From contig JAUHYL010000015.1 in assembly GCA_030426545.1 (NCBI GenBank), positions 1-64,000 on the forward strand: a stretch of DNA of 64,000 bases, in the 5' to 3' direction. This stretch comes from Gammaproteobacteria bacterium. Lineage in GTDB: Bacteria; Pseudomonadota; Gammaproteobacteria; Pseudomonadales; Halieaceae. Below are positions 1,871 through 14,248 of the stretch, one piece after another (the stretch's first letter is position 1; each line of letters starts with the position of its first letter). A model generated the notes under the pieces. That model saw only the letters and a list, made by a program, of their open reading frames with translations, did not search any database and was not told the origin of the DNA. The position numbers and the translations under genes are program-made.

Positions 1871-3388
1871 TCAGGCCTCTTCCTCTACCTTGTAGTGGTC
1901 GCGCTTCAAATCCTTGGAGGTCTTGATCTCGTGATACTCCGGCTCGGTGTTCACGTCCATGTAGTCGACGTCGTATCCCAGGATCTTACGGCCCAGCAGC
2001 AGCCCCATCTCAATGGAGTGATCGGCGTTGTTGTAGCGATGCGTGCCACCACGCCCAACAATATGCAGGCCCTCGAAGCCCGCCAGGAAATCGTTAATGA
2101 CCTTGATATTGTCGCCATAATCGAGATCGTAGACCGGGTAAGCCTGCAGCGACCGCACGCACTGAAAATCGATAACTTCGTCGGCCTTGATGAAACCAAG
2201 CTTGTGCTCAAGATCTTCAGCACAGCGCTTGCCGATTTCTTCGTCTGTCATATTCCAGATATGATCGCCGCGCGTACAGAAACACTCCAGTACCAGTGAA
2301 GTGGTGCTCTGGTCGGGCACCATCGCCTTGCTCCAGTTTTTTGGCTCGTGGAGGCGGCCAAACAGAATATCCTCGTCCTGCACGTACAGCCAGGTATCGA
2401 TCGATACCCGCTCTTTCTTCAATACGATATTGACGGTAATCAGGTCGCGGAAGCTGAGACTCTTCGCGGCATCGATCACTTCCTGGGGCGCCCCCGGGTT
2501 TAGAATACGCGGCAGTACACCCAGCGGAATCGTTGAAACGACCGAGGTTGCGTCGGTGCTACTTTCATTGCCCGCCGTGTCGGTGTAAATGACCTCGAAG
2601 TCGTTGGGACCCCGGTAATTGATACCGGTAACTGTAGACTCAAGGTGAATCTTGTTTCCCTCACTGGCGTCGACAATATCCTCCGCCATGCGCTGCGGTA
2701 TGCGCACATAGCCGTCGCGCGGATACATGAACTCCTCGATCAGGCTTTCGTTGTCCGACTTGGTTTTCAGCAGCGATTCCTGGATAACGGTCCAGATGGA
2801 GAGTCCGGCGCTGCGCTGGGACACCCAGTCTGCGGAAAGCTTTTCACAGGGCAAGCCCCATACCTTCTCGCTGTAGCGACGGAAAAACATGTCGTACAGT
2901 TTATGGCCGAACTGTGCGGTGTAGGCGTCCTTCATATTGTTGATGGACTTATTGAATATCGAATACTGCAGCGCAGACAGCAGGTACGTGATACCTGCGT
3001 ACATGATGGTGGGCAGGCCTGCATTCTTGATGACATTCAGGATGCTGATCGGGTAAGTGTAATAACCGCCGTCATAGTAAATTCTGCTGATCCGCTCAAC
3101 CCAGACGATTTCCTCGCCCATCAGGCGGCGAAACCAGTTGTTCAGATCTTCGTTCTTGGTAAACCAGCGGTGCCCGCCCAGGTCGAACTTGTACCCGTTG
3201 GCCTCGTTGGTGTTGCACAGACCACCGACAAAGTCATTGCGCTCTACAACCGTAACCTTAACGCCATGCTCGCAAATCTCGTGACCTGTAGCGAGCCCGG
3301 CAGGACCTGCTCCAAGAATGACCACGTGCTCTTGTCCGTTCATTTCTTTCACGTCTTTCACATCTCTCACGCTGTTCACGACCTTCAA
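1871..3388 (-). CDS. FAD-dependent amine-oxidase-like oxidoreductase
   Basis: Flavoprotein of the protoporphyrinogen-oxidase / UDP-galactopyranose-mutase-like group (COG1232 type). The Rossmann motif VVILGAGPAGLATG with the ribose-binding VVERN acid and the GGL segment are near the N-terminus; a second FAD-contact region near the C-terminus reads GRGGTHRYNNADHS. Members often sit in polysaccharide loci and may act on a nucleotide sugar or a lipid; that is inference here. The start appears to be TTG at 3388 with GGAG four bases upstream. An ATG 45 nt further in (MNGQEHVV) lacks a good site. Between them the DNA carries short repeats of GTGAAAGA type giving the odd N-terminus VNSVRDVKDVKE. It follows the 217-residue membrane protein by 12 nt. 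Confidence 0.82.
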   Translation of the reverse strand: MKVVNSVRDVKDVKEMNGQEHVVILGAGPAGLATGHEICEHGVKVTVVERNDFVGGLCNTNEANGYKFDLGGHRWFTKNEDLNNWFRRLMGEEIVWVERISRIYYDGGYYTYPISILNVIKNAGLPTIMYAGITYLLSALQYSIFNKSINNMKDAYTAQFGHKLYDMFFRRYSEKVWGLPCEKLSADWVSQRSAGLSIWTVIQESLLKTKSDNESLIEEFMYPRDGYVRIPQRMAEDIVDASEGNKIHLESTVTGINYRGPNDFEVIYTDTAGNESSTDATSVVSTIPLGVLPRILNPGAPQEVIDAAKSLSFRDLITVNIVLKKERVSIDTWLYVQDEDILFGRLHEPKNWSKAMVPDQSTTSLVLECFCTRGDHIWNMTDEEIGKRCAEDLEHKLGFIKADEVIDFQCVRSLQAYPVYDLDYGDNIKVINDFLAGFEGLHIVGRGGTHRYNNADHSIEMGLLLGRKILGYDVDYMDVNTEPEYHEIKTSKDLKRDHYKVEEEA

Positions 3389-3400
3389 GTAGCTCCGCTG

Positions 3401-4054
3401 TTATCCGTGTCGCATCGCTACGACTTTGTTATATACCGCAGCGAGCAACAGACAGCCGACGAATGCCAGAACGAACAGCTCCGCTGCGCCCAACAAACCG
3501 CCAAGAATACTGACGCTATAGCCCGGGATGTAATTCGCCAGCAGAGCCGCGTGCACGCTTTCCTCCGCTGTGCCACGCACCACCAGCCATGCCGTCGAGC
3601 AGAACAGGCCCAAACCCGCCATCGCACCGATCGCAAGACCGAGGCTCATGCCGTGCAAGCGCATAATAGAAGGCTTCAGTACCGGGTTTTCGGTTGGTGT
3701 AGTGCTGAGCAGAATTTCCGAAATCCGTGTTCCCAGTACCTTTCCATACAATCGATAGCTGAGGGAACTGAAAACGCCGATATATAGAAATGCCCAGAAA
3801 GCACCGATCCAGGCGCCGGCTGGCGACACCGAGTAGCCGGGGAAAAATACCGCGAGCAGGCCGAGATAATTCCCGGAGTCTGCCCCCCACTTACCCAGCG
3901 ATACCTGCGTGGCAAAATAAATGATCAGCGCTGCCATGGTGCCGCCGGTCAGGCCAAGTATCATTGAGTTGAACCGGATTGCGGCGTGCAACAGCTTGAG
4001 ATTGATGCCGCTTTCGTCTTGTTTTACTGCCTGCATATTCTGGTAGTTCCCCAT
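3401..4054 (-). CDS. Membrane protein with two PGYSVS modules
   Basis: Unrecognised 217-residue integral membrane protein with about four hydrophobic segments. It has an internal duplication: each half has a hydrophobic helix, then a motif of type LLAxYxPGYSVS, then a glycine-rich second helix. FFPGYSVSPAG is near residue 70 and YIPGYSVSILGG near residue 175. The next upstream gene carries a third copy, so the module has multiplied within this operon. It lies 12-13 nt from both neighbours, which implies cotranscription with the FAD oxidoreductase and glycosyltransferases. A role in glycan or lipid handling is guilt by association only. I know of no named family for it. Confidence 0.75.
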   Translation of the reverse strand: MGNYQNMQAVKQDESGINLKLLHAAIRFNSMILGLTGGTMAALIIYFATQVSLGKWGADSGNYLGLLAVFFPGYSVSPAGAWIGAFWAFLYIGVFSSLSYRLYGKVLGTRISEILLSTTPTENPVLKPSIMRLHGMSLGLAIGAMAGLGLFCSTAWLVVRGTAEESVHAALLANYIPGYSVSILGGLLGAAELFVLAFVGCLLLAAVYNKVVAMRHG

Positions 4055-4067
4055 GCTGTGGTGCCCG

Positions 4068-4418
4068 TCAATCTGCCAGCTCTGCAGAGCTGATCAGCAT
4101 CACACCCAATGCCACGTAATGTGCAATATTCCAGTAAACTGCGGCGGCGAAGCCCGCCAAACCCCCTATAAGGAAGCCGTAGACCCCGCCGACCATCACG
4201 CCCGACCAACTGACGCTGTAACCCGGCAGATACTCGGCCAACAAACTCAAATGAGGGCCAACAGGGTAGTTTTCAGGCACTGTCTGCAGCAACAGAATAG
4301 ACGTAGCGAGTATGAGGATAATGGCGCCCAGGACGCCCGAGGCCAGGGTCAATGCCAGCGCGTCCATTTTCGCAAAAACGGCAGATAGTATCTCGTGGTC
4401 CTGTATCGGGCGGGTCAT
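4068..4418 (-). CDS. Small membrane protein with one PGYSVS module
   Basis: Unrecognised 116-residue membrane protein and first gene of the minus-strand glycan operon. A hydrophobic helix at about residues 22-46 is followed by LLAEYLPGYSVSWSG and a second, glycine- and alanine-rich helix at about 75-98. This matches each half of the 217-residue protein encoded 13 nt downstream, so the two genes look like products of duplication. A likely sigma-70 promoter lies about 95 nt upstream. Possible roles are a membrane scaffold or a subunit of a complex with its paralogue; no catalytic residues are evident. Confidence 0.72.
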   Translation of the reverse strand: MTRPIQDHEILSAVFAKMDALALTLASGVLGAIILILATSILLLQTVPENYPVGPHLSLLAEYLPGYSVSWSGVMVGGVYGFLIGGLAGFAAAVYWNIAHYVALGVMLISSAELAD

Positions 4419-12972: not shown

Positions 12973-14097
12973 CTAGCGCTTTTTACGCCTTGCCGGGGTT
13001 TTGCGCTTTGCCTTGGCCTTGGGTCTGGCTTTAGCCTTGGCTTTCTTTGGCCTTGCCTTCGCTTTTGACTTGGCTTTTGACTTCGCCTTCGGCTTAGCTC
13101 TGGCTTTAGACTTCGCCTTCGCCCGCGTCTTGGGCTTTGCCCTGGACTTGGCTTTGGACTTGGTCCTGGCTTTGGACTTGGGCTTGGCCTTCGCCCGGGT
13201 TTTAGCCTTGGCCCTGGTCTTCTTCCTGGCTTTTGGCTTCGCCTTGGACTTGGCTTTGGCCTTCGTCTTCTTCTTGGGCTTGGCTTTCTTACCCGCCGCT
13301 TTCTTCAGCTTCGCTTCCGCCTTGCGCGCAGCCGCGCGGGCCTTGGCCTCTGCTTTGCGTTCAGCCGCGGCCAGCTGCTTGGCGAGCTTCTTCTCCAGCG
13401 CAGCGAGCTTCTTGGCATCTGCCTTGGCGCGTTTCTTCAGCCACTGTTCCGCATGCTTGGCCAATGCAGCGGCCTTATCAGCCTCCGCCTTGGCTGCAAG
13501 CTCCGCCTTCTTCGCCAGCACGCGTTCCCGGGCAGCCAGCTTCGCAGCTTGACGCTTGGCAACATCACTTGCCTTGGCCAGGCGATCCTTTGCCGCCGAT
13601 GCCCGAGAGCGCAGGCCCTTGAGCTTCGCTGATACGCGAGCCGCCGCATTCGATGCCGCTTTGGATGCGCGCTTATTCGCAGCGGTGGATTTTCTGGCAG
13701 CCGCTTTCCGTGCCTTCGCTACCTTTTTACGGGCAGCTGCGAGAGCTTTCTTCTCGCTGTCGATGGCCTTTTGAACCTTCGCCAGAGCCTCTTCCGCCTT
13801 CTGCACTGCAGGAGACGAAGGTGCTTTCTTGGCTACGGACTTCTTGGCAGCTTTCTTTTTGGTGGCTTTGCGCTTGGCGGGAGCCTTGCGCTTGGTTGCT
13901 GCTTTACGCTTGGCGGGTGCCTTGCGCTTTGTTGCAGCTTTGCGTTTTGCCGGTGCTTTACGCTTGGCGGCTGCCTTGCGTTTTGCGGGTGCTTTTTTCC
14001 GACTGACTTTCTTTGCTGACGCTTTACGTTTTGCAGGCGCCTTTTTTCGAGCAGCCTTCGCTCGCTTTGCTGGGGCTTTTTTCTTAGCAGTTGCCAT
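12973..14097 (-). CDS. Histone H1-like / AlgP-like Lys-Ala-rich DNA-binding protein
   Basis: Very basic 374-residue protein in three parts. Residues about 1-90 are repeats of the type KRKAPAKRKAAT; about 95-255 are a charged Ala/Lys/Glu region likely to form a long coiled coil; the rest is a Lys-Ala-Pro-Arg tail of the type KAKSKAKPKAR. It resembles Pseudomonas AlgP and bacterial H1-like proteins, which bind DNA non-specifically and compact the nucleoid. The ATG at 14097 with GGAG upstream is preferred to the track's TTG at 14112. Low complexity makes family assignment compositional rather than by conserved sites. It is monocistronic, ending at the terminator shared with mobA. Confidence 0.8.
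   Translation of the reverse strand: MATAKKKAPAKRAKAARKKAPAKRKASAKKVSRKKAPAKRKAAAKRKAPAKRKAATKRKAPAKRKAATKRKAPAKRKATKKKAAKKSVAKKAPSSPAVQKAEEALAKVQKAIDSEKKALAAARKKVAKARKAAARKSTAANKRASKAASNAAARVSAKLKGLRSRASAAKDRLAKASDVAKRQAAKLAARERVLAKKAELAAKAEADKAAALAKHAEQWLKKRAKADAKKLAALEKKLAKQLAAAERKAEAKARAAARKAEAKLKKAAGKKAKPKKKTKAKAKSKAKPKARKKTRAKAKTRAKAKPKSKARTKSKAKSRAKPKTRAKAKSKARAKPKAKSKAKSKAKARPKKAKAKARPKAKAKRKTPARRKKR
13865..14000 (-). repeat. In-gene tandem repeat, ~18-nt unit
   Basis: Imperfect head-to-tail copies of a unit encoding KRKAPA or KRKAAT. The third-base differences between copies suggest protein-level selection on the repeat rather than a fresh DNA expansion. A second, less regular repetitive block encodes the C-terminal tail at about 13000-13290. 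Confidence 0.7.
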
Positions 14098-14248
14098 CTC
14101 GCAAGTCTCCAAGAGTAGTTACCGGGTACCGCGACTTCAAAACTAGCAACATTGTCAATCAGTTACAATAGCGTAAGCATGAGAAAAACTGTGCAAACTA
14201 ACAGTCCGCACAGCGCGATTTCGAGAACGTTTTTGTCGTTGAGCAAAG

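Follow-up and report, generated by a model that had tools for sequence, protein, structure and literature searches.

The window, by which we mean the whole stretch of 64,000 nucleotides analysed here, raises the question of what M116 and M217, two adjacent membrane proteins that share a PGYSVS motif, do beside a flavoprotein and glycosyltransferase genes. On the minus strand, the genes follow each other in the order M116, M217, flavoprotein, GT4-type glycosyltransferase and GT2-type glycosyltransferase (Table 1). The GT4-type gene is kept in L011, L012, L015 and L016. Full-length relatives of the truncated GT2-type gene are present in L011-L013, L015 and L016, and the matches of the relative in L011 are of GT2 type. 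Elsewhere in the window (12973-14112, minus strand), a 379-aa Lys/Ala/Pro-repeat protein that resembles histone H1-like bacterial proteins is encoded; the long mirror ORFs opposite it on the plus strand look spurious.

Table 1. Features of the M116-M217-flavoprotein locus, with positions in the window
Feature	Position	Strand	Evidence
M116, 116 aa, two-TM, one module unit	4068-4418	minus	ORF; NF037947 E 1.1e-4
Module unit of M116	about 4107-4394	minus	profile match
PGYSVS motif, M116 copy	4209-4226	minus	sequence
M217, 217 aa, four-TM, two module units	3401-4054	minus	ORF; NF037947 two stretches E 1.9e-11; AlphaFold
M217 module unit 1 (N-terminal)	3725-4000	minus	profile match; hhalign to other units
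PGYSVS motif, first M217 copy	3824-3841	minus	sequence
M217 module unit 2 (C-terminal)	3410-3682	minus	profile match; hhalign
PGYSVS motif, second M217 copy	3509-3526	minus	sequence
FAD flavoprotein, PRK07208.1-4 family, UDP-galactopyranose mutase-like	1871-3343	minus	NF005548 446.9 bits; PDB UGM E 1e-17
GT4-type glycosyltransferase, next gene in row	601-1845	minus	Pfam PF00534 E 9.1e-30
GT2-type glycosyltransferase, truncated by contig start	3-569	minus	open-ended ORF

The initial annotation described the pattern LLAxYxPGYSVSxxG, flanked by hydrophobic helices, twice in the 217-aa and once in the 116-aa protein, and proposed a duplicated two-helix module. This description holds, with F for Y in the first copy. 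The copies read LLAVFFPGYSVSPAG and LLANYIPGYSVSILG in M217 and LLAEYLPGYSVSWSG in M116, which gives the consensus LLA-x-[FY]-x-PGYSVS-xx-G, and every unit has two hydrophobic helices around the motif, both by sequence and in the AlphaFold model. When profiles of both M217 halves, M116 and both unit types of another genus were compared with hhalign, values of 96-99.5% were obtained, against ≤ 9% for reversed-sequence controls; the duplication is thus confirmed and all module copies are homologous. Both proteins are under purifying selection (dN/dS of 0.03-0.12 where dS was estimable). No further significant module match was found in the 4.35 Mb genome that carries the window.

Two-helix module relatives of about 90 aa were observed in two genomes of the genus in which the module is fused to the flavoprotein (see below), both remote from any flavoprotein. 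One (VLPGFKWLTWWGFVVG) is encoded at L110 1489-1761 and is followed by a multi-TM antiporter-like gene; the other is found at L076 / L081 (G725:C1:1079328-1079549). Weaker profile matches in other genomes have E values of 0.002-0.009. This band was read in part (L053 and L054, which by eye resemble chromate-transporter-type repeats) and its remainder was left aside.

The module is kept together with the flavoprotein in three families. The order M116-M217-flavoprotein is retained in the six genomes compared and in other genomes of the genus, as far as contigs reach; the intergenic gaps that were measured span 3-57 bp. M217 is present in 16 of 97 relatives, every one within the genus. G562, a genome from another family, carries the same three genes, again with related GT4 and GT2 genes alongside. 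Fusion occurs in a third family: in G174, G725, G869 and G821, 4 of the 81 genomes of one genus, the flavoprotein runs through its usual C-terminal tail and on into a module, and the next gene encodes a free module about 110 aa long. This patchy presence suggests transfer of a glycan cassette. Among 245 genomes sampled from the order, the flavoprotein was detected at E ≤ 1e-60 in four, all of which have the module, and the two adjoin each other in 8/8 module genomes checked. The link between module and flavoprotein is therefore real. In the flavoprotein tree, the module-linked members fall into two clades, and the data neither establish a single origin of the link nor reject it (AU p 0.205). 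The proposal that the module operates with the downstream FAD oxidoreductase is accordingly supported by synteny in the genus, synteny in another family and fusion in a third. Its extension to the glycosyltransferases stands in part, as these are nearby in all three lineages while their identity varies.

A ferric-reductase-like four-helix membrane protein was also seen at L078 7506-8168 (PF01794, just under cut-off) and L077 17623-18003; together with a UbiE-type methyltransferase, such a gene recurs near module-flavoprotein genes in two families.

The flavoprotein itself exceeds the NF005548 (PRK07208.1-4) cut-off of 389 bits, and the fused form scores 717.9 bits. Its nearest solved proteins are UDP-galactopyranose mutases (UGMs), and its residues H56, R175 and R328 align with His63, Arg182 and Arg327 in the UGM from Aspergillus (chain numbering counted with an offset of 3). 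In UGM, the histidine loop, Arg182 and Arg327 contact the flavin and the substrate diphosphate (PMC3624792). The flavoprotein thus shares with UGM the GGH loop and two phosphate-binding arginines, but it belongs to the uncharacterised PRK07208 group and has a membrane partner or a fused hairpin. As it scores 45 bits against a TIGR00031 mutase cut-off of 303.75 bits, mutase-like chemistry is what we infer for it. The AlphaFold model of the window flavoprotein (pLDDT 43, shallow alignment) was left out of this reading. The module, in turn, is real, conserved, present in multiple copies and functionally tied to this mutase-like flavoenzyme.

For M217, AlphaFold predicts four TM helices as a single chain with moderate confidence (pLDDT 72, pTM 0.58), and a Foldseek search of the model against the PDB gave no match at E ≤ 0.001. 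Positive-inside counts, which are uninformative for M116, indicate for M217 that both termini and the loop between the units face the cytoplasm, the side on which the fused flavin domain must sit. Across 28 units, the residues G, T, P, G, V, G and G are invariant, and Y and L nearly so. No charged residue is conserved inside the helices, the only conserved basic residue preceding helix 1; T39 is the sole conserved polar residue in the helices, and no His or Cys is conserved in the module. This G/T/P/V pattern without helix charges, combined with the predicted cytoplasmic termini, favours a packing and docking element over a transporter.

Relatives of the flavoprotein that lack the module often have a different membrane protein beside them. 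In a phylum-wide sample, 22 genomes with a flavoprotein relative at E ≤ 1e-50 and without the module were collected. A GtrA (PF04138) gene is directly adjacent on the same strand in 11 of these, and one more lies at 5.6 kb. Four of the adjacent GtrA calls were confirmed by hmmscan and the 11 were re-found in the flanks. By chance, about 0.03 adjacent GtrA genes would be expected (38 GtrA genes in the 22 genomes; approximately 3.3 kb per 3.9 Mb genome), although the 11 genomes are related and the counts are not independent events. In contrast, GtrA is near the flavoprotein in none of the eight module genomes checked, four of which are without any GtrA gene. In three flavoprotein relatives added later, neither the module nor GtrA adjoins the gene, so that an adjacent GtrA is missing in 14 of 25 module-less relatives (including the one with GtrA 5.6 kb off), and not every relative has a membrane partner of one type or the other. 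A different conserved setting was seen for the flavoprotein relatives at L117 5876-7306, L118 7468-8898 and L119 6514-7950: their neighbours, read by eye, are a YeeE/YedE-like membrane protein, a small TusA-like protein and a radical-SAM-type protein, and module and GtrA are not adjacent.

Module and GtrA share no homology: hhalign of the module against the 11 GtrA neighbours gave ≤ 1.4%, and M116 and M217 have no Pfam PF04138 match. The likeness to the GtrA / DPMS transmembrane family (PF04138; e.g. GtcA and Rv3789) is one of functional analogy only. Both are small multi-TM proteins in a glycan setting, and in 11 of the 22 module-less relatives sampled first GtrA is the neighbour of a flavoprotein of this family, but the module consists of hairpin repeats without the charged residues that are essential in GtcA.

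We prefer the explanation that M116 and M217 form a membrane dock for the mutase-like flavoenzyme in a glycan pathway, and give it about even chances. Between them, the two proteins contain the same glycine-rich two-helix hairpin three times, its termini being predicted to lie in the cytoplasm and its PGYSVS turn on the outer face. These hairpins may assemble in the inner membrane as a dock for the adjacent flavoprotein, which would keep it close to its glycosyltransferases and to a sugar substrate that is lipid-linked or membrane-bound. The dock would stand in for the small GtrA-type membrane proteins that accompany related flavoproteins.

The main rival to this dock is a flippase, in which the six helices of M116 and M217 move a polyprenyl-phosphate-linked sugar, produced or reworked with the help of the flavoprotein, to the periplasm, a role that has been proposed for GtrA, ArnE/F and Rv3789. 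We consider it rather unlikely. The modules do occupy the place of GtrA beside related flavoproteins, and flipping is the presumed activity of GtrA proteins (PMC7389260, PMC11127046). A duplicated four-TM protein with a two-TM partner also recalls small multidrug-resistance-like proteins, and some clusters contain GT-C-like or PMT_2-like genes and exporters. However, GtcA requires R95 and N132, located in TM3 and TM4 (PMC7389260), whereas the module helices conserve no charged or polar residue except T39, and fusion to a cytoplasmic enzyme suggests a scaffold. Moreover, flippase activity is unproven for GtrA proteins themselves (PMC11127046), and the role of Rv3789 is disputed between flippase and anchor, the latter having been proposed.

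It is improbable that the genes share no more than a neighbourhood, as unrelated envelope genes co-inherited in an operon. Long flanking gene blocks are indeed also conserved within one genus, but two other families retain the pair amid different flanking genes, one of them in fused form; these fusions largely refute the idea.

Because the mutase chemistry needs a reduced flavin, with which UGM works (PMC3624792), the modules could alternatively serve as an electron conduit linking quinone pool and flavin. The ferric-reductase-like four-helix protein that adjoins the fused form in L078, with a relative in the L077 cluster, would fit such a role, but the module conserves neither a His nor a Cys that could bind a cofactor, and the ferric-reductase-like gene was not found at the genus loci examined, the window contig being cut on that side. 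We therefore hold electron transfer to be highly improbable.

The initial annotation knew of no named family with this signature and called for a profile search. Pfam searches with M116 or M217 gave nothing of weight, a PDB sequence search with M217 and tblastn against plasmids and phages gave no match, and in a literature search we found no paper with PGYSVS and none linking holin, flavoprotein and glycosyltransferase. A named family does exist, though: NF037947 (holin_4, 'bacteriophage holin') matches M217 with 44.3 bits and M116 with 22.7 bits, both under its curated cut-off of 70 bits, where bona fide members score 76-89 bits. The homology was confirmed by hhalign of the units against three NF037947-kind proteins, two of which were scanned and both lie above the cut-off; the resulting 92-96% (reversed controls ≤ 9%) makes the units a divergent NF037947 branch. 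Both forms are two-helix hairpins of about 75-90 residues with a glycine-rich second helix, but the NF037947 motif is GYxPTxxGxxxG and that of the module PGYSVSxxGxxxG, and the module scores under the cut-off, is duplicated and multi-copy, has the PGYSVS form and is tied or fused to a flavoprotein. The search thus yielded a family match that does not explain the module away, since we know of no experimentally established function for NF037947.

We observed further NF037947-kind small proteins at L079 8150-8551, L080 7188-7433 and L018 8657-8968, all on the minus strand. Their neighbours, read by eye, are hydrogenase-maturation, cobalamin and lpxB-type (lipid A) genes, none of them phage genes.

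It is very improbable that the modules act as holins, or as pore or lysis proteins of holin descent: NF037947 is the only named family matched and the homology is real, but neither M217 nor a bona fide NF037947 member has a match in 50,697 phage records, the module profile has none in viral contigs, PHROGs returned only weak matches without function and no annotated match of weight, the module is chromosomal and kept with the flavoprotein, and the family members seen adjoin hydrogenase-maturation, cobalamin and lipid A genes. A phage link was thus found for neither the module form nor the NF037947 form, and for the members seen here, as distinct from the whole family, the name looks doubtful. 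The module is probably a new membrane partner of a sugar flavoenzyme rather than a phage holin. On a bolder reading, which is rather less likely than not, the PGYSVS hairpins could represent a family that has no relation to GtrA yet takes its place, as membrane partner, be it flippase or dock, of a mutase-like flavoenzyme whose substrate is a polyprenyl-linked sugar; NF037947 would then consist of misnamed bacterial membrane adaptors.

A parallel to this arrangement is the mycobacterial DprE1/DprE2-Rv3789-AftA set, in which a sugar flavoenzyme is likewise accompanied by a small membrane protein whose role, flippase or anchor, is disputed. DprE1 is a member of a different flavoprotein family, and Rv3789 is a GtrA protein that is unrelated to the module. 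Whether small membrane proteins beside sugar flavoenzymes, such as GtrA and Rv3789, serve as flippases or as anchors is a matter of dispute. A protein that stands where GtrA would, is not homologous to it and is naturally fused to the flavoenzyme would offer a direct way to separate the two roles, as a fused hairpin may anchor the enzyme and is unlikely to be a flippase on its own. The name 'bacteriophage holin', moreover, belongs to a family that is bacterial and chromosomal and bears no sign of phage origin here.
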